Part shown: positions 3,573 to 54,554 of the stretch, piece by piece
Layout: each line of letters begins with the position of its first letter
How positions within the stretch are numbered: position 1 is the stretch's first letter
Origin: Rhodovulum marinum
GTDB lineage: Bacteria > Pseudomonadota > Alphaproteobacteria > Rhodobacterales > Rhodobacteraceae
DNA length: 64,000 nt
Assembly: GCF_004343075.1 (NCBI RefSeq)
Contig: NZ_SLXP01000001.1
Coordinates: 488,474-552,473, forward strand
Reading direction: 5' to 3'
The notes under the pieces: generated by a model
Told to the model about the DNA's origin: nothing
Database searches by the model: none
Seen by the model: the letters and a program-made list of their open reading frames with translations, nothing else
Translations under genes and position numbers: made by a program

Positions 3573-4232
3573 ATGCAACACGAAAATCTGGCAGGCAGGC
3601 GGCGCCGAGGCCCCGCCGAAGAGGCACGGGGCCTGCGCCAAAGCCGTCGTACGAACGCCACCGGCGCAGTTCTGGCGTTGATGCTTGCCGCCCTGCCCGC
3701 GACCATGCACGCGGCGGAGCGCGGGGGCACCGCCCATCTCAGCAGCAAGTCCTTTGCGCCGGCGCCAAACGGCGCACAAGGGCTCTGCAGCCGCTACGCC
3801 TGGGCCTGTGCGCGCGGCCACTCGGCGGCACTCAACCCCGGCGAGGTGCGGCTGGCCGAGCAGATCAATCGGCGAATCAATGCCAGCGTCCGCCCGATCG
3901 AGGACATCAAGCAATACCAGCGCGAGGAATTCTGGACCTTGCCCACGGCGCGTGGCGGAGATTGCGAGGACATCGCGCTTTTGAAGAAAGCCGAACTGAT
4001 CCGCCAAGGCCTGCCCCCGAGCCGGCTTTTGTTGGCCACGGTGCTGGATCGCAAGCGTAACAACCACGCGGTTCTGGTGCTGCGGACGGACAAGGGCGAC
4101 TTCGTGCTCGACAACCTGACAGACCGAATGCTGCATTGGTCCCGGACGGGCTATTCCTTCCTCAAGGTCCAGGACCCGCGTGCCCCGCACCGCTGGACCG
4201 CGGTGCTGGCCGGCGGCATATTCAAGGGCTGA
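3573..4232 (+). CDS. Bacterial transglutaminase-like cysteine proteinase (BTLCP, LapG-like)
   Basis: A 219-residue predicted periplasmic cysteine protease. Residues 29-48 form a signal/anchor segment (GAVLALMLAALPATMHAA). The catalytic triad of the family is visible: Cys131 in GGDCEDIA, His165 in NNHAVLVL and Asp180 in FVLDNL. In Pseudomonas, LapG of this family cleaves the adhesin LapA under c-di-GMP control. Here no LapA-like adhesin and no LapD receptor lie next to it, so the substrate is unknown. The start at 3573 is set by AAGGAGAA 12 bases upstream; the frame is open further upstream but that part is Arg-rich and lacks a ribosome binding site. It converges with hemF. Confidence 0.85.
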   Translation: MQHENLAGRRRRGPAEEARGLRQSRRTNATGAVLALMLAALPATMHAAERGGTAHLSSKSFAPAPNGAQGLCSRYAWACARGHSAALNPGEVRLAEQINRRINASVRPIEDIKQYQREEFWTLPTARGGDCEDIALLKKAELIRQGLPPSRLLLATVLDRKRNNHAVLVLRTDKGDFVLDNLTDRMLHWSRTGYSFLKVQDPRAPHRWTAVLAGGIFKG

Positions 4233-4257
4233 GCGCAGCGCGCGACCCCGGTCCGGT

Positions 4258-5151
4258 TCAGGGCCAACTGGCCAGGGGCGGCATGCTCATCAGCACCGCA
4301 GCCGGGTCGTGCCCCGTCTCAAGCCCGAATTTCGTGCCCCGGTCGTAGAGCAGGTTGTATTCCGCATACAATCCCCGATGGACCAGTTGCGCGGCGCGAT
4401 CCTCGTCGGTCCAGGCCGTGTCGCGCCGCCGTTCCACCAACGGCACGAATGCGGGCAGGAACGCCCGTCCGACATCTTGGGTAAAGGCGAAATCGGCCTC
4501 CCAGTCACCGGTATTGTGATCGTCGAAGAAGATGCCGCCGACGCCCCGCGCCCGGCCCCGATGCGGGACAAAGAAATACTCGTCCGCCCAGGCCTTGAAG
4601 CGGGGGTAATGGCTTAGATCATGCCGGTCGCAATGCACTTTCAGCACGCCGTGGAACGCCTCGGTATCCGCATCGTAGGGACGGCAGGGGTTCAAATCGG
4701 TGCCCCCCCCGAACCACCAGCCATGCGGGGTCCAGAACATGCGCGTGTTCAGATGCACCGCCGGCGTATGCGGGTTCTGCATATGGGCCACAAGGCTGAT
4801 ACCACTGGCCCAAAAGCGCGGATCATCGGCCATGCCGGGCATGTCCTTGCGGGCCATCATCGCCGACTGGGCGCGCGGGTTCAGTTTACCGAACACGGTT
4901 GAAACATTGACGCCGACCTTCTCGAAGACACGCCCGCCGCGCATCACGCTCATCAGCCCGCCGCCGGCATCCGCCCCATCCTCGGATGTGCGCCGCGTCT
5001 CGCTTACTTCGAACCGGCCCGCCGGCGCGTCCCTGAAGGGGCCCGTCGCCTGGGCCTCCTCCAGCGCCTCGAAGGCGGCCACGATCTCGTCGCGCAGCGC
5101 CCGAAACCACGCCGCCGCGCGCATCTTCTGGTCGTCGAAAAGTTCTGTCAT
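4258..5151 (-). CDS. hemF: Oxygen-dependent coproporphyrinogen III oxidase
   Basis: Converts coproporphyrinogen III to protoporphyrinogen IX using molecular oxygen. The 297-residue protein carries the family core: GGGLMSVMRGGRVFEKVGVN, then HMQNPHTPAVHLNTRMF, then WWFGGGTDLNP with the conserved His and Asp residues, and GGIFFDDH near residue 200. This enzyme complements HemN at 20.4 kb, which does the same step without oxygen, an arrangement expected in an organism that moves between oxic and anoxic conditions. It converges with the LapG-like gene and is divergent from the downstream lipoprotein gene. Confidence 0.96.
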   Translation of the reverse strand: MTELFDDQKMRAAAWFRALRDEIVAAFEALEEAQATGPFRDAPAGRFEVSETRRTSEDGADAGGGLMSVMRGGRVFEKVGVNVSTVFGKLNPRAQSAMMARKDMPGMADDPRFWASGISLVAHMQNPHTPAVHLNTRMFWTPHGWWFGGGTDLNPCRPYDADTEAFHGVLKVHCDRHDLSHYPRFKAWADEYFFVPHRGRARGVGGIFFDDHNTGDWEADFAFTQDVGRAFLPAFVPLVERRRDTAWTDEDRAAQLVHRGLYAEYNLLYDRGTKFGLETGHDPAAVLMSMPPLASWP

Positions 5152-16942: not shown

Positions 16943-18541
16943 TTATTCAGCCGGAGCCGCGATCGGCGCGGCCTGCTTGGCCGGTGCCGATGTGGCGGTC
17001 TTCCAGATGTTGTAGCACATGATCAGCCCGCCGAGGACATAGAGCGCACCACCGGTGGCACGAACCACGTACATCGGGAACTTGGCGTCGACCGTGTCGG
17101 CGAAGGAGTTCACCAGGAAGCCCTGCGCGTCGACCTCGCGCCACATCAGGCCTTCCATGATGCCCGACACCCACATCGAGGCCGCGTAGAGAACGATGCC
17201 GATCGTCGCCAGCCAGAAGTGCCAGGACACCATCGCCAGGCTGTACAGCCGCTCCTTGTTCCACAGCCGCGGGGCCAGGAAGTAGAGCGCGCCGAAGGTG
17301 ATCATGCCGTTCCAGCCCAACGCGCCGGAATGCACGTGGCCGATCGTCCAGTCGGTATAGTGCGACAACGAGTTGACGGCCTTGATCGACATCATCGGGC
17401 CTTCGAAGGTCGACATCCCGTAAAAGCCGACGGCCACAACCATCATCCGGATGATCGGGTCGGTGCGCAGCTTGTCCCAGGCGCCCGACAGGGTCATCAG
17501 GCCGTTGATCATGCCGCCCCAGGAGGGCATCCACAGCATGATCGAGAACACCATGCCCAGCGTCGAGGCCCAGTCAGGCAGCGCGGTGTAGTGCAGGTGG
17601 TGCGGACCGGCCCAGATATACAGGAAGATCAGCGCCCAGAAGTGGATGATCGACAGCTTGTAGCTGTAGACCGGGCGTTCGGCCTGCTTGGGCACGAAAT
17701 AGTACATCATGCCGAGGAAACCCGCGGTCAGGAAGAAGCCCACCGCGTTATGCCCATACCACCACTGGGTCATGGCATCCTGCACGCCGGCGAAGACCTG
17801 CACCGATTTCGAGCCGAACAGCGACACCGGGATCGACAGGTTGTTCACGATATGGAGCATCGCGACGGTCACGATGAAGGACAGGTAGAACCAGTTCGCC
17901 ACGTAGATATGCGGCTCTTTCCGGCGGAAGATCGTGCCCATGAAGATCATCAGGTAGACCACCCAGATGATCGTCAGCCACCAGTCAACGTACCACTCGG
18001 GTTCGGCGTATTCCTTGGACTGCGTCGCGCCCAGCACATAGCCGGTCGCCGCCAGCACGATGAACAGCTGATAGCCCCAGAACACGAACCAGGCGGCATT
18101 GCCCCCCCAAAGACGCGCCGCCGAGGTGCGCTGGACCACGTAGAACGATGTCGCGATCAAGGCGTTGCCGCCGAAGGCGAAAATCACCGCCGAGGTATGC
18201 AGCGGCCGCAACCGGCCGAAATTCAGATAACCCTGCGCCCAGTCGAAATTGAGCCAGGGAAACGCCAGCTGGCTGGCGATGAAGGTGCCGGCGGCAAAAC
18301 CGACCACCCCCCAGAAACAGGTCGCGATGACGCCCGCGCGGACGACATCGTCCATATAGCCGGTCTCCGGCGCCGGTTTCGGATCACCGGTGCGCCGGAC
18401 CGTCATCAGGAACATCGCCGCCGCGACAAGCATCACGATGACTGCATGCACCTGGTAGGGGAAGTCGCGCGCATAACTGGCGGCGATCGCGGCGCACACC
18501 GCGACCACGCCGTAAAGCGCGATCTTAACGTAGTCCCACAT
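16943..18541 (-). CDS. ccoN: cbb3 oxidase catalytic subunit CcoN
   Basis: The 532-residue heme-copper oxidase core that reduces oxygen to water with high affinity and pumps protons. Twelve membrane helices are expected. Conserved His ligands are seen in [28 protein letters not shown] (CuB His with the cross-linked Tyr region), [15 protein letters not shown] (two CuB His) and [14 protein letters not shown] (heme b/b3 His). The start MWDYVKIAL at 18541 was preferred over an upstream in-frame ATG at 18631 because the latter would run through the promoter region and its FNR box. An FNR-type site is centred about 97 bases upstream. Confidence 0.97.
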
Positions 18542-47862: not shown

Positions 47863-50262
47863 CTAGCCCCTGAGCGTGCCGCCCGTCGCCTTTTGGACCT
47901 TCTCGACGATCTTCTTGCCGACCGCCTCGATTTCCTCGTCGGTCAGCGTGCGGTCCATCGGCTGCATGCGCACCGTGATGGCCAGCGATTTCTTGCCCTC
48001 GCCCAGGCTGCCGCCGACGAATTCGTCGAAAACGCGCACCTCTTCAATCAACGCCTTGTCGGCCCCGGCAGCGGCGTTGACCACGTTCAGCGCAGGTGTG
48101 TCGGCATCCAGTACGAAGGCGAAATCGCGTTCCACCGCCTGCAAGTCGGACACCCCCAGCGCATCGCGGGTCGCCCCCTTCTTGCGCGGCATCGGTGCCT
48201 CTTCCAGCCAGACGGTAAAGGCCATGGCAGGGCCCTTCACATCCATCTCGCGCAGAACCTTGGGGTGCAGCTCTCCGAACACGGCCAACACCTTTTTCGG
48301 ACCGAGGCAGATCATGCCATGCCGGCCCGGGTGCCAGTGATCGGCCGCGCCGCGCAGGATCTGCGCCTTGGCCGGGGCCCCGATGGCCGCCAGCACCGCC
48401 TCGCAATCGGCCTTGGCGTCGTAGACATCGACCGGACGGCGCGATCCGAAGGGATCGCGCGGCGCGGTGTGCCCGACCAGAAGGCCCGAGACCAGCAGGT
48501 GCTGTTCGCCCGGCTCGGCCCCGTGAAAGGCAGGCCCCACCTCGAACAGCGCCAGATCGGCAAAGCCGCGGGCCTGGTTGCGCGCGGCGGCCTGCAACAG
48601 ACCCGGAAGCAGCGCGGGCCGCATGTGGCTCATCTCGCTGGAAATCGGATTCTCCAGCGCGGTCGCGTCATCGCCGCCCCCGAACAGCGCCGCCGAACCC
48701 TGGTCAATGAAGGAATAGGTGACGCATTCGTTGTAACCCAGGGCCGCGCAGGTGCGCCGGGCCGCGGCCTCGCGTTTCTGCATCGGCGTCAGGATGCCGG
48801 TAGGCACGCCGACATGCGACCGGGGCAGGCGCTTGCCTTCCAGTTTCGTCAGCGAGGCGACGCGGGCGACCTCCTCGACAAGGTCCGCCTCGCCCTGAAC
48901 GTCGGGGCGCCAGGAGGGCACGTGGGCCGTGTCGCCCTCCAGCCGGAAGCCCAGCGCGGTCAGCGTCGCGCGCTGCTCCTCCGCCGGAATATCCATGCCC
49001 ACCAGCCGCGCCACGCGGTCGGTATCGAGGCGGAAGGCGCGGTCCATTTCAAGCGGCGCGCCATCGGCCGCCACCTCGGACGGCTCGCCCCCGCACAGGT
49101 CCAGGATCATCCGCGTCGCGGCTTCCAGCCCCGGCAGGGTATAGGCCGGGTCGACGCCGCGTTCGAAACGGTAGCGCGCGTCGGAATTGATCTTCAGCGC
49201 GCGGCCCGTGGTGGCGATGGTGATCGGGTCCCAAAAGGCGCTTTCCAGGAAGACGTTCACCGTGCCCTCGGTCACGCCGGTATGCTCGCCGCCCATGATG
49301 CCGGCGATGCTTTCGGGGCCGGACTCGTCGGAGATCACCATCATGCCTTGGGCGAAGTTGTATTCCTTTTCATCCAGCGCCAGCAGGGTTTCATTCCCCT
49401 CGGCCGGGTGGATGCGCAGGCCCCCTTTGACCACATCCGCATCGAAGACGTGCAGCGGGCGGTTCTGGTCATAGGTGAAGAAGTTGGTGATATCGACCAG
49501 CGCCGAGATCGGGCGCAGGCCGATCGCCCTCAGCCGGTCCTGAAGCCATTGCGGGCTGGGGCCGTTCTTCACCCCGCGGATCAGGCGGCCGGTGAAATGG
49601 GGCGCGCCCTTGTCCTTGAGCGCCGGGTCGATGGTCACGCCGATGGGGCACGGGAAGGCGCCGGGCACGGGGTCCACCGCCTGCGGTTTCAGCCTGCCGA
49701 CGCCGCGCGCGGCCAGGTCGCGCGCGATGCCGCGCACGCCCAGCGCGTCGGGGCGGTTGGGCGTGATCGCGATCTCGATGACGGGATCGACCTTGGCCGG
49801 GTCGTTCTCGGCCAGCCAGTCGGTGAATTTCTGCCCGACCTCGCCGCTCGGCAACTCGATGATGCCGTCGTGCTCGTCCGAAAGTTCCATCTCGCGTTCG
49901 GAACACATCATGCCATGGCTTTCGATCCCGCGGATCTTGCCGACCTGGATGATCGTGTCGATGCCGGGGATATAGGTGCCGGGATGCGCCACCACGACGG
50001 TGATCCCCTCGCGCGCATTGGGGGCGCCGCAGATGATCTGCTGTTCGCCCAGCGCGGTCGCCACCTGGCAGACGCGCAGGCGGTCGGCATCGGGGTGCTT
50101 CTCGGCCTTGAGGACGCGGCCGATGGTGAATTCCTCAAGCTTCTTCGCGGGGTTCTCGACGCCCTCGACCTCCAGCCCCAGGTCGGTCAGCGCGTAGAGG
50201 ATGTCGTCGAGGGACGCCTCGGTGTCGAGGTGGTCCTTCAGCCAGGAGAGGGTGAATTTCAT
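47863..50262 (-). CDS. pheT: Phenylalanyl-tRNA synthetase beta subunit
   Basis: A 799-residue subunit. The N-terminal MKFTLSWLKDHLDTEAS leads to a tRNA-binding OB domain (about 40-150), then B3/B4 editing domain, B5 domain, catalytic-like core and the C-terminal FDX-ACB anticodon-binding domain (RDFAFVLDAD to the end). It works as (alpha-beta)2 with PheS. It is separated from pheS by about 1.2 kb holding small membrane genes and repeats, unlike the usual adjacent order. Confidence 0.97.
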   Translation of the reverse strand: MKFTLSWLKDHLDTEASLDDILYALTDLGLEVEGVENPAKKLEEFTIGRVLKAEKHPDADRLRVCQVATALGEQQIICGAPNAREGITVVVAHPGTYIPGIDTIIQVGKIRGIESHGMMCSEREMELSDEHDGIIELPSGEVGQKFTDWLAENDPAKVDPVIEIAITPNRPDALGVRGIARDLAARGVGRLKPQAVDPVPGAFPCPIGVTIDPALKDKGAPHFTGRLIRGVKNGPSPQWLQDRLRAIGLRPISALVDITNFFTYDQNRPLHVFDADVVKGGLRIHPAEGNETLLALDEKEYNFAQGMMVISDESGPESIAGIMGGEHTGVTEGTVNVFLESAFWDPITIATTGRALKINSDARYRFERGVDPAYTLPGLEAATRMILDLCGGEPSEVAADGAPLEMDRAFRLDTDRVARLVGMDIPAEEQRATLTALGFRLEGDTAHVPSWRPDVQGEADLVEEVARVASLTKLEGKRLPRSHVGVPTGILTPMQKREAAARRTCAALGYNECVTYSFIDQGSAALFGGGDDATALENPISSEMSHMRPALLPGLLQAAARNQARGFADLALFEVGPAFHGAEPGEQHLLVSGLLVGHTAPRDPFGSRRPVDVYDAKADCEAVLAAIGAPAKAQILRGAADHWHPGRHGMICLGPKKVLAVFGELHPKVLREMDVKGPAMAFTVWLEEAPMPRKKGATRDALGVSDLQAVERDFAFVLDADTPALNVVNAAAGADKALIEEVRVFDEFVGGSLGEGKKSLAITVRMQPMDRTLTDEEIEAVGKKIVEKVQKATGGTLRG

Positions 50263-50330: not shown

Positions 50331-50624
50331 CTACTCCTGTTCCGCGCGCGCCGCCAGCGTGTCGACCCGGCCCATCCGCCACAGCCGTATCTCGCGCGCG
50401 AGGCGGATCGAGGGCTTGAGGAAGAAGAACCCCGAGCCGATGACGAACAGCCAGATCGCGGGGGTTTCGAGGGATTGCCAGAAGAACAGCACCGAGCCGA
50501 CGAGAAAGCACAGCGCGGCGGCGAAATCGACGGCGGTATGGGCGATCTCGTAGGCGGCATAGACGCGCCGGGTCTCGGCGTTGCGTTCGCGGTTCTGGTG
50601 CTGGAAAAGCTGCATCCTGGGCAT
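50331..50624 (-). CDS. YrhK-like membrane protein
   Basis: A 97-residue protein with two membrane helices (VDFAAALCFLVGSVLFFWQ and PAIWLFVIGSGFFFLKPSIRL) and the YrhK-domain pattern of a Tyr-containing N-terminus (YAAYEIAHTAVDF), GSVLFF and a closing RPSIRL-like segment. YrhK proteins have no known role. It lies 68 bases upstream of pheT on the same strand, inside the segment that separates pheS from pheT. Confidence 0.75.
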   Translation of the reverse strand: MPRMQLFQHQNRERNAETRRVYAAYEIAHTAVDFAAALCFLVGSVLFFWQSLETPAIWLFVIGSGFFFLKPSIRLAREIRLWRMGRVDTLAARAEQE

Positions 50625-50696: not shown

Positions 50697-50720
50697 CGTA
50701 GGGTGGGTGCCAACCCACCA
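50697..50720 (-). repeat. Palindromic intergenic repeat, copy A (inverted)
   Basis: On the minus strand it reads TGGTGGGT, variable TGGC, then ACCCACCCTACG. It is oriented opposite to copies B and C. Confidence 0.85.
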
Positions 50721-50738
50721 TTGCGGGTTCTTGCGGGG

Positions 50739-50761
50739 TGGTGGGTTTCACCCACCCTACG
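50739..50761 (+). repeat. Palindromic intergenic repeat, copy B
   Basis: TGGTGGGT, variable TTC, then ACCCACCCTACG; the arms TGGTGGGT/ACCCACC pair as a short hairpin. Confidence 0.85.
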
Positions 50762-50790
50762 GGTGCTGCCTGTGAGCGCGTTCGGCCAAG

Positions 50791-50813
50791 TGGTGGGTTA
50801 TACCCACCCTACG
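50791..50813 (+). repeat. Palindromic intergenic repeat, copy C
   Basis: TGGTGGGT, variable TAT, then ACCCACCCTACG. It ends 4 bases before the stop codon of the membrane gene on the minus strand. Confidence 0.85.
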
Positions 50814-50817
50814 CTTG

Positions 50818-51195
50818 CTAGCCGCTTGCCGCGCTATGCCCAACAAAGATATCATTCCACTTTTTTATTTCAGGATAATCGGCGGAAAGCGCAAAACTTG
50901 ACGCCATTAGAAAAACAATCAAAACCAAGGCGGATAACCCCGCGTGAAATGCACTCTCTTTCTTTATAAGATTCTTCATTAGGTCTTTCTGCATGGCCTC
51001 GGCGCTATCCAGCTTCGCTTCAAGCGCGCTTCCGTCAGGAAGTGCTTTAAAGCTTGATTGACCTATATGACTTACTCCATCCACGCGTGACAGCAGAACT
51101 CCAGACAATGCCCCTATAGCGCAGTAGGCTAACAAGTTCGATAGCGAGTTAACGTCCCCGAGTGTCGGCACCTGCATCAAAAGCGCAGTAAGCAC
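50818..51195 (-). pseudogene. Downstream half of a split four-helix membrane protein gene
   Basis: As an independent gene it would start at GTG 51195 and give 125 residues with two further helices (LLAYCAIGALSGVLLSRV and GLSALVLIVFLMASSFAL) and a coiled-coil-like cytoplasmic part (SALEAKLDSAEAMQKDLMKNL). It has no ribosome binding site, and the frame stays open for 16 codons upstream of GTG through a full hydrophobic helix (NAVLLAFVVFVLTALLMQV) that no start codon can include. That frame begins at a nine-A tract shared with the upstream half, so the two were probably one gene of about 215 residues, now broken or joined by slippage. Base composition is low in GC. Family not recognised. Confidence 0.65.
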
Positions 51196-51232
51196 GAAGA
51201 CTACGAAGGCAAGAAGTACTGCATTTTTAGCC

Positions 51233-51466
51233 TCAGTTTTTTTTTAAAATTCCAAGCAAAATTGTATGCTGCCCAGTAGAGAGCATTGTGCGCCTTATAT
51301 ATTTATTTTCCAGCCCCAACATCAGGGAATATAACTCCAGTCTCTGCCTGAGGCTGGAATACTCTGCGCGCTCTTGGCATCTGACGAAAAGGCGAGTGTA
51401 TATCGCAATTCCGAAGCCGCAGATCACGAGACCAAAAAGCGCCGACGATACAAGAACTACATTCAC
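51233..51466 (-). pseudogene. Upstream half of a split four-helix membrane protein gene
   Basis: A 77-residue frame starting at GTG 51466, which overlaps the pheS stop codon (GTGA), so it would be translated by coupling to pheS. One membrane helix (VVLVSSALFGLVICGFGIAIYT) is followed by a charged cytoplasmic segment (FVRCQERAEYSSLRQRLELY). It ends ILKKN-stop on a run of nine A (51237-51245), just where the downstream half takes over in the +1 frame. GC content in sampled 60-base lines is 37-47 percent, well below the neighbours. Confidence 0.65.
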
Positions 51467-52536
51467 CCACTCAACCCCCCATGCAGGGTCGGCCTGTCCA
51501 GCGCGCTGAAGCCGTAGTGCCTCAGCCAGCGCAGGTCTGAATCGAAGAATGCCCGCAGGTCGGGGATGCCGTATTTCAGCATGGCCAGGCGGTCGATGCC
51601 CATGCCGAAGGCGAAGCCCTGCCATTCTTCGGGGTCGATGCCGCCGGCGGCCAGCACCTTGGGGTGGACCATGCCGGAGCCGAGGATCTCCATCCAGTCG
51701 TCGCCCTCGCCGATCTTGAGCGTGCCGCCGGTCCAGGAACAGCGGATGTCGACCTCGGCGGAGGGTTCGGTGAAGGGGAAGTGCGAGGCGCGGAAGCGGA
51801 GTTCGACGCCGTCGACCTCGAAGAAGGCGCGACAGAATTCCTCGAGCACCCATTTCAGGTTGGCCATGGAAATGTCGCGGTCGATGGCCAGCCCCTCGAC
51901 CTGGTGGAACATCGGCGTGTGGGTCTGGTCGTAGTCGCAACGATAGACCCGGCCCGGCGCGATCACCCGGATCGGCGCGCCCTGGGCCTGCATCGCGCGG
52001 ATCTGCACGGGCGAGGTGTGGGTGCGCAGCACATGCGGCGGGCGGTCGTCGCCGTCCGCGCGCGCCATGAAGAAGGTGTCGTGTTCCTGCCGGGCGGGGT
52101 GTTCGGGCGGGATGTTCAGCGCGTCGAAATTGAACCAGTCGCTTTCGATCTGCGGCCCCTCGGCCACGGCAAAGCCCATGTCGGCGAAGATGGCGGTGAT
52201 CTCTTCGGTGACCTGGGACACGGGGTGGATCGTGCCGCGGGGGCGCGGGCGTCCGGGCAGCGTGACGTCGAGCCATTCGGCACGCAGACGTTCGTTCAGC
52301 GCGGCATCGGCAAGGGCGGCCTTGCGGGCGGACAGCGCGGAATTGATCTCGTCTTTCAGCGCGTTCAGCCTGGGGCCCATGACCTGCCGTTCCTCGGGGG
52401 TCATCTTGCCCAGCTCGCGCATTTTCAGGCTGATCTCGCCCTTCTTGCCGACCGCGGTGACGCGCAATTCTTCCAACGCTGCCTCGTCGGCGGCAGCTGC
52501 GATCGCGTCGAGATATTTCTGCCTCAGATCGTCCAT
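51463..52536 (-). CDS. pheS: Phenylalanyl-tRNA synthetase alpha subunit
   Basis: A 357-residue class II synthetase catalytic subunit. The N-terminal coiled coil ([20 protein letters not shown]) is followed by the three class II motifs: motif 1 near [19 protein letters not shown], motif 2 in [19 protein letters not shown] and motif 3 in [19 protein letters not shown]. The start at 52536 is the typical MDDL. Its stop is overlapped by the small membrane gene that follows. Confidence 0.97.
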
Positions 52537-52822
52537 CCCGGGGGCCCCTTCGCTGGCATTCGGCGGCGTCGATAGCACAGGGGCCCGCGATTGCAAATGC
52601 GGGCGCAGGCGATGCGGCCCCTGCCGGTCAAGGCGGCAGAGGTCCGCGCGGCTGCCGAAAAACCGGGCGGCGGCGTGTTGCATCGCGCGGGCTGGCGGGC
52701 ACGGCGTTGACCAGGGCGCGCAAGGCCGCAGGATGAGGGGGCAAGTGGCGGATTGCGGGCGGCCTCGGCCCGTGGGGACGACCGGCCCCGCCTCCGCCCC
52801 TTGCACGAAAGGAGCGCTGGCC

Positions 52823-53443
52823 ATGACCGAAGACGAGGCCTATCGCTGGCTGATCGCCGGCGCCGCGCCGGGGGCCGATCCGTTCGATGCGCATGTGCTG
52901 GCCTCGATCCTGGCGCTGGCCATAGGAGAGGGCGGTACCGCTGGAAGGGTTTGTGCCCATTCCGGGCTGGATCGCGGGGCACTGGATCGGCTGGCCGAGG
53001 GGATGTTCCCGGCCTGTCGCGAAGGGCTGGCGGCGATGGCCGACCAAGACCTTCCCACAGCCGAGATCGAACAGGATTCGGTGCGCAATCTGCTGGAAGA
53101 TCACGCCAGCGGTCCAAGCCTGCTTGGCCGGCCGCTTGCCGCGATGGTGGCGCGCCGCGCGATGGAACCCGACCACCTGTGGCAGGACCTTGGCCTGCGG
53201 AACCGGAACGAGTTGTCGGCTCTGCTGGATCGCCATTTCGCGCCACTGGCCCGGCAGAACACCGCCAACATGAAGTGGAAACGGTTCTTCTACCGCAAGA
53301 TTTGCGAGGAAGAAGGCTTCGTTCTCTGCGCAGCGCCCTCCTGCAGCGCCTGCGGCGATTTCGAGATGTGTTTCGGCGAGGAAACCGGCGAAGCCCGGCT
53401 GGCACGGGTGCGCAACGGGCTTACCGCCGCCGGCCCCGCTTGA
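52823..53443 (+). CDS. nifQ: NifQ family molybdenum donor for FeMo-cofactor synthesis
   Basis: A 206-residue protein whose C-terminus carries the diagnostic C-x4-C-x2-C-x5-C motif (Cys169, 174, 177, 183) and upstream [17 protein letters not shown] with family-typical residues. In Klebsiella and Azotobacter, NifQ carries a Mo-Fe-S cluster that supplies molybdenum to the FeMo-co scaffold. The start ATG at 52823 has AAAGGAG eight bases upstream. No nitrogenase structural gene is in the window. Its 3' end overlaps the Hint gene by 154 bases on the other strand. Confidence 0.9.
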
Positions 53444-54432
53444 TCGACGGGAACCATCTGACCCAGTCCCTGCGCCCGCCGCCAGGCCGACGGCCCCATG
53501 ATCGGGCGCGCCGGGTCCAGCGGCCCCGCTGCCAATTGCGGGCACAATGCCTCGAGCCAAGCGCGCGTTGCGGGGGTCATGCGTTTCCACGCCTCTGAAC
53601 CCGGGTTCAGGCTTTCCGCAAGGGCGCCCTCGGCGAAAAGGATCTCGTGACGCGCAAACAGAAGGTGAAAATACGTAACCACCCCACCCGCTTGGACCGT
53701 AACGCCGGGCAGCCCGACAAAGGCCTTGGCCGCCACCAGCACCTCGCGCCCGCCGCAGAGCGTCAGAACCCGGTGTTGCGGCGACAGGCACAGCCTGTGC
53801 CGGTTCCCAAGCGCCCCGGGTGCGAAGACCACCGGAGCAGCCGCTCCCTCGGCCCGTACCCGCCGGCACCCGACCCACAGCAGCGGTTGCATCCCGTGAT
53901 CGGCGGTCAGGACCGGGTCGCCGGGCCGCAAAGCCTCGATCCGCGATTCACCACCCCCGGTCAGGATGCGCGTGCCTTCGGCAAAGCACACATACAGATC
54001 GGAATAGGCGATTGCGGGCTGGTTCGAGTCGATCGAGACGACCTCGTAGGTAACGCCCGGCATGATTTCGGCATCAGAAACCGCGGCCTCGATGTGATTG
54101 CCGATCTTGACGCCATAAACCGTGATCTCGTCGGCGGGGTCGGTCGATCCGGCCGGGCGCACGATATAGGCGTAATCGACCTTGATCGCCGTGCCGGCCG
54201 GAAACGTCGCGCCGTTGACGGCAACCGGGGCGGCAAGGGTCTGGCCCGACGCGTCGCCGTCGGCGAAAAACGTGTCGTCGTCGGTGATCTCGGCTGCCAC
54301 CGGGACGGACCCGGCGCCGATCGAGAAGGTCGAGTTTCCGACCGCACCGCCATTCGCATCCTGTGTGTCAGAGAAGACGTCGGGGCCGATCGAGGTGATG
54401 TCGCTCTTTTCCCAAAGGTAGATCGTCGGCAT
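53290..54432 (-). CDS. Hint-domain protein
   Basis: A 380-residue protein. The first 150 residues are beta-rich and acidic with no signal peptide visible (MPTIYLWEKSDITSIGPDVF). The Hint domain starts at CFAEGTRILTGGGESRIEALRPGD and includes LSPQHRVLTL (block with catalytic His) and HEILFAEGALAESLNPG. Hint domains of this kind in Rhodobacteraceae occur in large surface proteins and may be self-cleaving. The last 52 residues are antisense to nifQ and look unstructured ([14 protein letters not shown]), so the natural C-terminus may be earlier. Confidence 0.85.
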   Translation of the reverse strand: MPTIYLWEKSDITSIGPDVFSDTQDANGGAVGNSTFSIGAGSVPVAAEITDDDTFFADGDASGQTLAAPVAVNGATFPAGTAIKVDYAYIVRPAGSTDPADEITVYGVKIGNHIEAAVSDAEIMPGVTYEVVSIDSNQPAIAYSDLYVCFAEGTRILTGGGESRIEALRPGDPVLTADHGMQPLLWVGCRRVRAEGAAAPVVFAPGALGNRHRLCLSPQHRVLTLCGGREVLVAAKAFVGLPGVTVQAGGVVTYFHLLFARHEILFAEGALAESLNPGSEAWKRMTPATRAWLEALCPQLAAGPLDPARPIMGPSAWRRAQGLGQMVPVDQAGPAAVSPLRTRASRASPVSSPKHISKSPQALQEGAAQRTKPSSSQILR

Positions 54433-54554
54433 CGCGAACGGCCCCAGTCCCACACGCACCCCGGCCGGCGCGGCGTGTCAGGCCAGAATCGTGCATTGCC
54501 CTTTAAAACAGGCTTAACGACCTGCGTTGCCAGAACTTGCACGTCGCCACAGAA

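Follow-up and report, generated by a model that had tools for sequence, protein, structure and literature searches.

Loss of frame at a nine-A tract in a membrane protein gene of Rhodovulum marinum, and turnover of unrelated genes between pheS and pheT in the Rhodobacteraceae

Slippage on runs of A has been described in bacterial genes. In Thermus dnaX it is reported to take place on a run of nine A, and a large proportion of bacterial genomes show selection against A/T runs once these reach nine (PMC1088944). In Citrobacter rodentium the tssM1 gene is reported to regain its frame at a run of 11 A (A11), at a level of about 20–25% (PMC4256274). Transcript data from E. coli and Buchnera indicate that insertions, mostly of single bases, dominate in A/T runs; deletions in such runs are described as rare in E. 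coli and as increasing with run length in Buchnera (PMC5574713). Ribosomes can also slide on A runs in vitro, although little product is reported at A9 or A10 (PMC4363877).

A separate body of work concerns the neighbourhood of the genes encoding the two subunits of phenylalanyl-tRNA synthetase. In Pseudomonas aeruginosa, the pheS/pheT neighbourhood known as cDHS1 has been tied to nine known immune systems (PMC10250203). A search of the titles and abstracts of the open-licence literature found no description of a slot between pheS and pheT in Rhodobacteraceae, which is not proof that none exists.

The locus described here lies in a 64 kb stretch of Rhodovulum marinum DNA, the whole of which is called the window below. 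A sequence-only reading of it had placed one frame at GTG 51466, overlapping the pheS stop as GTGA and ending on a run of nine A, and a second frame in +1 behind a TAA abutting the same run, with GTG 51195 as first start codon and without a ribosome-binding site. These coordinates were confirmed (Table 1), the second frame extending for 141 codons. The TAA (51246–51244) overlaps the A run, with the +1 frame opening right behind it, and no Shine–Dalgarno-like sequence was seen ahead of GTG 51195 or of the start codons that follow it in order (TTG 51180, ATG 51177 and GTG 51171). The upstream half contains helix 1 and the first part of a conserved LLGxLKKxEAK motif, terminating as LLGILKKN-stop. 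Reading through the junction yields a protein of 215 residues with four hydrophobic segments (4–22, 82–100, 107–125 and 175–193), in agreement with the fused four-helix protein of about 215 residues that had been proposed. The open +1 frame is not a product of chance, since only 4 of 20,000 mononucleotide shuffles keep it open. The GC content of the upstream half is 45% and that of the downstream ORF 48%, compared with 67% at the end of pheS.

Table 1. Coordinates of the features at the pheS–pheT locus, in window positions
Feature	Position	Strand	Remarks
Open frame with pheS	51463..52824	-	Actual start internal to frame
GTGA overlap of gene start codon and pheS stop codon	51463..51466	-	
Upstream half	51233..51466	-	77 codons; GTG start on pheS stop; TGA end
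A9 tract	51237..51245	-	Conserved Leu-Lys-Lys codons; point of frame loss
Downstream half	50818..51243	-	+1 frame; 141 codons plus stop; helices 2–4
YrhK-like gene, between broken gene and pheT	50331..50624	-	97 aa; tblastn E 7e-39
pheT	47863..50262	-	Start MKFTLSWLKDHL; 1,200 nt past pheS stop

The start of pheS within its open frame is probably near a specific internal residue stretch. The YrhK-like gene was found by tblastn with YrhK-group slot proteins as queries, the family name being that of Pfam PF14145. The A9 tract is the sole A/T run of at least eight in the window and one of four sites with at least nine A in the 3.95 Mb draft genome; of the other three, that on C3 looks intergenic and those on C5 and C15 both look like assembly artefacts. 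Long mixed homopolymer patches are present on contigs C5 (~20832) and C15 (first 100 bases), by N's and by the contig end, respectively.

Some other elements of the window may be recorded here. Directly past the upstream stop, at 51222 on the minus strand, GAGG is followed by an ATG in the -1 frame; this possible seven-codon minicistron is probably a chance occurrence. The interval separating the YrhK-like gene from the broken gene contains, at 50698–50812, three GTAGGGTGGGT units in both orientations, accompanied by shorter GGTGGGT/ACCCACC copies, which we take to resemble REP-type repeats; exact copies of the GTAGGGTGGGT unit were present at 4 of the 123 other slot loci as well (L033, L038, L039 and L081). 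On the far side of pheS, a minus-strand frame (53290–54459) carries the sequence CFAEGTRILT, presumably typical of Hint-domain proteins.

That the two frames belong to one gene, as had been claimed, is strongly supported by homologues that are intact across the junction. The upstream half reached, at a weak E of 0.057, a genome from another genus of the same family (G023), in which the interval from pheS to pheT holds a single 204-codon frame whose GTG start overlies the pheS stop and which reads LLGTLKKVETKAA across the site equivalent to the window's break. At E ≤ 0.1, a first profile made from the window and G023 proteins gave matches in 13 genomes out of 394 from the family, counting the window's own; the three weakest matches (G073, G097 and G268) were set aside and ten kept. 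A second profile, comprising nine homologues and leaving out the window's copy, matches both halves: the upstream one at profile positions 20–94 (E 6.3e-5) and the downstream one at positions 91–202 (E 4.0e-13). The halves are thus colinear and adjacent on the profile, in different frames. BLASTP of the read-through protein against the nine homologues gave E-values from 9e-15 to 5e-6, relative only to this ten-sequence set. Later additions (Mameliella alba, Rubellimicrobium roseum, Ruegeria atlantica, G731, G735 and G942) brought the family to 16 distinct members, the first three of these coming from six loci of which the other three were sequence repeats of G046, G288 and G375. Along with the three matches set aside earlier, weak matches in G159, G190 and G542 were excluded from the family. 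G542 was the one genome besides the window's to match among 289 from the class, and was rejected as a family member as its frame seems to encode some other membrane protein.

Searches for further relatives returned little. The downstream half as single query found itself and one weak match only in 295 family genomes; the downstream half by itself, used as a pattern to scan the named genome contigs, brought up no relative, a plasmid search gave no match and none was found in viral contigs with profile A4. The gene is absent from all 15 other species of the window's genus examined and is therefore regarded as accessory.

Thirteen of the 16 members have a single open frame that runs through the junction to a full-length end, so that the comparison with homologues suggested in the sequence-only reading did turn up an unbroken protein. 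All 13 read through LLGxLKKxEAK, which is the most conserved part of the family and the site of the window's tract. The longest A tract at this motif is A9, found in the window only, followed by A8 in Ruegeria atlantica and A7 in G023, G288 and Mameliella alba, the other 11 members having A5 or less. The four A7/A8 members are all intact, and none of the 15 members with A8 or less is split at the motif. Besides the window's, two copies are broken. In Rubellimicrobium roseum (L026, ~4200–4400) the frame stops close to a G6 run, past the third helix, with the C-terminal homology resuming in another frame, a break that could be due to assembly error. In G731 (L192, from the pheS end at 1423 to ~1,930), a one-contig genome whose copy has the window's protein as best match among 13 family queries, the frame ends early and the last conserved part is missing. 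All 16 members start between -3 and +34 nt from the pheS stop, with pheT found downstream in 11; in G167, G375, G053, G731 and G735 pheT was not located, either because the stretch was too short or because the motif was missed. Decay of the window's downstream half, considered on account of an Asp and a Pro lost near helix 3, was rejected when intact homologues proved to share these losses: the Asp is also missing in the intact Ruegeria homologue and the Pro in the intact G735 homologue.

The position that the gene occupies is the more interesting find. Using the C-terminal 73 residues of the window's pheS, the gene was located in 161 of 169 genera, and 116 of these 161 entered the slot survey (100, plus nine that include the window's genus, plus seven added as gene carriers). 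A distance of 60 nt or less from pheS to pheT was found in only four of the 116. Where pheT is in the stretch (87 genera), spacers have a median of 624 nt, and 69 of the 87 measure at least 250 nt; the two subunit genes of an essential tRNA synthetase are thus non-adjacent in nearly all the surveyed Rhodobacteraceae genera in which both ends are seen. Sixteen genomes from other families of the class were also searched, of which six yielded a locus: pheT overlaps pheS by 4 nt in five of them and was not found in the sixth.

In Rhodobacteraceae the pheS–pheT junction is a turnover slot of unrelated, often AT-rich genes, whose starts commonly lie over the pheS stop. An open frame of at least 60 codons starting -25 to +4 of the pheS stop is present in 38 of the 116 genera, and at exactly -3 in 22 of them; 27 of the 38 frames have a GC content lower than that of the pheS end by 5 points or more, and some GC-rich frames in the count are probably due to chance. 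Among 58 slot frames scanned with Pfam (139 loci gave 67, and nine of the window's gene family were left out), DUF2513 was found in ten, YrhK in eight and ASCH in seven, to which BLAST groups add the window's gene family and one-helix proteins. The mean GC content relative to pheS is -0.04 for YrhK and -0.03 for ASCH, and -0.13 to -0.14 for the window's gene family, DUF2513 and the one-helix proteins. Within the window's genus, a -3 frame occurs in 5 of 16 species and the occupants come from at least three unrelated groups (the window's gene family, one-helix proteins, and DUF2513 or DUF2513-like proteins), two of the 16 loci ending within 300 nt of pheS. The presence of unrelated occupants within one genus implies that the slot turns over.

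How genes enter the slot may be judged from its edge. Comparison of the last 60 nt of pheS with the spacer gave no more repetition than comparison of a control stretch (mean longest exact match 8.38 vs 8.34 over 90 loci), which speaks against site-specific insertion at the pheS end. Recombination in the flanks is then the likeliest route by which slot genes would be brought in. Once there, slot genes are not as a rule broken: when the 139 loci were searched by tblastn with the slot families, a gene split over two frames was seen in the window only, and copies in L035, L127 and L156 look truncated, that in L035 at a contig end.

What the intact protein might do is suggested by a limited resemblance. 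Pfam gave no family at cut-off for the read-through or for either half and only two weak, unrelated matches for the homologues, and NCBIfam gave no meaningful match for five family proteins. Two structure models, with mean pLDDT of 68.6 and 70.7, both consist of long helices in four main blocks, the latter comprising helices 2–49, 64–98, 108–131 and 148–196 with a short last one. Foldseek found no match in the PDB for the first model at E ≤ 0.001. For the second, VIA-align returned long-helix proteins only, with Z up to 9.4, in the range of a common arrangement for helical models, and no inference was drawn from such fold matches, NINJ1 (Z 8.0) included. The PycTM models of PADLOC matched the window read-through, G046 and G023 weakly, and L024 more weakly still (E 0.38). 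The best E-values are 9.9e-5 (G023) and 4.1e-4 (window read-through), over ~58 of 154–165 positions of models that have no curated cut-off, and each PycTM model matches two of nine members at E ≤ 0.1. For L028, L027, L191, L012 and L011 PADLOC returned nothing at E 1 or below, and for L025 a weak match to an unrelated model only. The membrane family is uncatalogued and has weak similarity to PycTM, an effector of Pycsar. The resemblance weakly suggests that the intact protein would probably be an accessory membrane effector, possibly with a part in defence and distantly akin to PycTM; we treat it as a lead, not as membership.

A second, different family of small membrane proteins in the slot (L081:226-735 and L074) also has a PycTM/2TM-like stretch (PADLOC E 0.002). 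Its two copies match each other at E 4e-68, that in L074 lying ~627–1112 nt past pheS. Should some slot genes prove to be defence or toxin-like, as the PycTM hint would have it, the slot would be a compact place to seek new ones and a setting in which to test why such genes gather in an essential operon.

Turning to the break itself, an everyday event, we favour the view that a single accessory gene, coupled to pheS and encoding a membrane protein of some 215 residues for which four helices are predicted, has been put out of frame by replication slippage from A8 to A9, and we consider this likely. The start codon overlapping the pheS stop would probably provide the translational coupling. Codons for the Leu-Lys-Lys-x-Glu-Ala-Lys motif are often A-rich, and the two Lys codons after the Leu would allow an A-rich tract to form. 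A7 and A8 occur in intact relatives, and from an ancestor with A8 one slip suffices. No close relative of the window's copy was found among the genomes searched, so that we infer the A8 ancestor, and with it the direction of the change, which is most likely recent. The normal product would now be a 77-residue one-helix fragment, with the full-length protein at most a minor product of transcripts with an altered A count, although a trickle of it is plausible. No premature stop interrupts the downstream half, a state compatible with a recent break and also with residual use. Simple loss of an accessory gene is probably all that the frame break represents.

Other readings were weighed against A8 to A9 slippage. 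A bolder one makes the junction a dedicated single-gene cargo slot, in which unrelated, mostly AT-rich genes are swapped and, by starts placed on the pheS stop, translated under the drive of pheS, and makes the present occupant one of an orphan Pycsar-like effector family switched off repeatedly at homopolymers, reversibly so at A9; we regard this combination as doubtful.

It is unlikely that the ninth A is an assembly or sequencing error and that the organism really carries A8 and an intact gene. Long A runs are error-prone in any read type, and the genome is a draft in 38 contigs with homopolymer artefacts (the C5 patch near N's and the C15 contig end). The tract, however, lies well inside its contig of 628 kb, and 27 of 30 other window runs of at least six fall inside open frames of at least 120 codons, a control that is weak in that GC-rich DNA yields long open frames by chance and only one other A/T run reaches 7. 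Examples are the run of seven C at 18102 in a 565-codon frame and that of eight C at 4703 in a 306-codon frame.

The near absence of A≥9 from the genome, the A7–A9 tracts at the motif in 5 of 16 members and the breakage of the gene in three of 16 could also be read as signs of a contingency locus, at which the A tract flips a costly membrane effector ON and OFF reversibly by replication slippage. With A5 or less in 11 of the 16 members, we find this distinctly improbable; the comparison used one genome per species.

Programmed transcriptional slippage at A9, giving short and full-length protein in a set ratio, we judge very improbable. It has precedents in the nine A of Thermus dnaX, nine being where many bacterial genomes begin to show selection against A/T runs (PMC1088944), and in the A11 of C. 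rodentium tssM1 (PMC4256274), and the window has nine A at its frame junction and an intact +1 frame. However, the split frame is conserved in none of the 15 other members and two of these are broken elsewhere than at the tract, which makes a programmed device unlikely. The window's frame would be restored by the loss of one A or the gain of two, whereas slippage on bacterial A/T runs is reported to be mainly single-base insertion (PMC5574713); the product of ribosome sliding at A9 or A10 in vitro is reported to be small (PMC4363877), and RNA folding shows nothing out of the ordinary at the tract (z -0.46). Between the causes proposed in the sequence-only reading, then, the recent frameshift (or sequencing error) is favoured; polymerase slippage is not supported as a programmed device. 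A programmed -1 ribosomal frameshift was rejected: although the sequence contains the heptamer A_AAA_AAC, the -1 frame runs into a stop ~12 codons on and the protein continues in +1, not -1. Finally, two separate genes are hardly credible, since each of the 13 unbroken members carries one frame through the junction, no ribosome-binding site precedes the downstream start codons, the first of which would split a helix, and separate genes with their own ribosome-binding sites were seen in none of the 16 members.

Set beside known systems, the broken gene has features in common with tssM1 of C. rodentium and with mxiE, spa13 and spa33 of Shigella, frameshifted genes described as rescued by transcriptional slippage on poly-A or poly-T: an A run ahead of a premature stop, an intact downstream frame and homologues that are intact elsewhere (PMC4256274). 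It differs from tssM1, with its A11, in having A9 and in needing one A fewer or two more. With PycTM and CBASS 2TM effectors (PDLC02363/02364/02365 and PDLC00668) members of the family align weakly over ~58 residues, comprising the helix with the Lys/Glu motif and a two-helix hairpin, and the register of the alignment is kept between the window read-through and G046 on PDLC02363 and between the read-through and G023 on PDLC02365. The match covers under half of the model, and the window's family has an extra N-terminal helix. Unlike in Pycsar, the neighbours of the window's gene are pheS and the YrhK-like gene, then pheT, and no pyrimidine cyclase gene was found beside it in the window. As to location, the slot may be set beside cDHS1 of P. 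aeruginosa, a PheS/PheT neighbourhood associated with immune systems and described as also carrying ihfA, a MerR gene and a proline tRNA (PMC10250203). Unlike cDHS1, the Rhodobacteraceae slot, whose defence function is only putative, holds single genes between pheS and pheT that often overlap the pheS stop.
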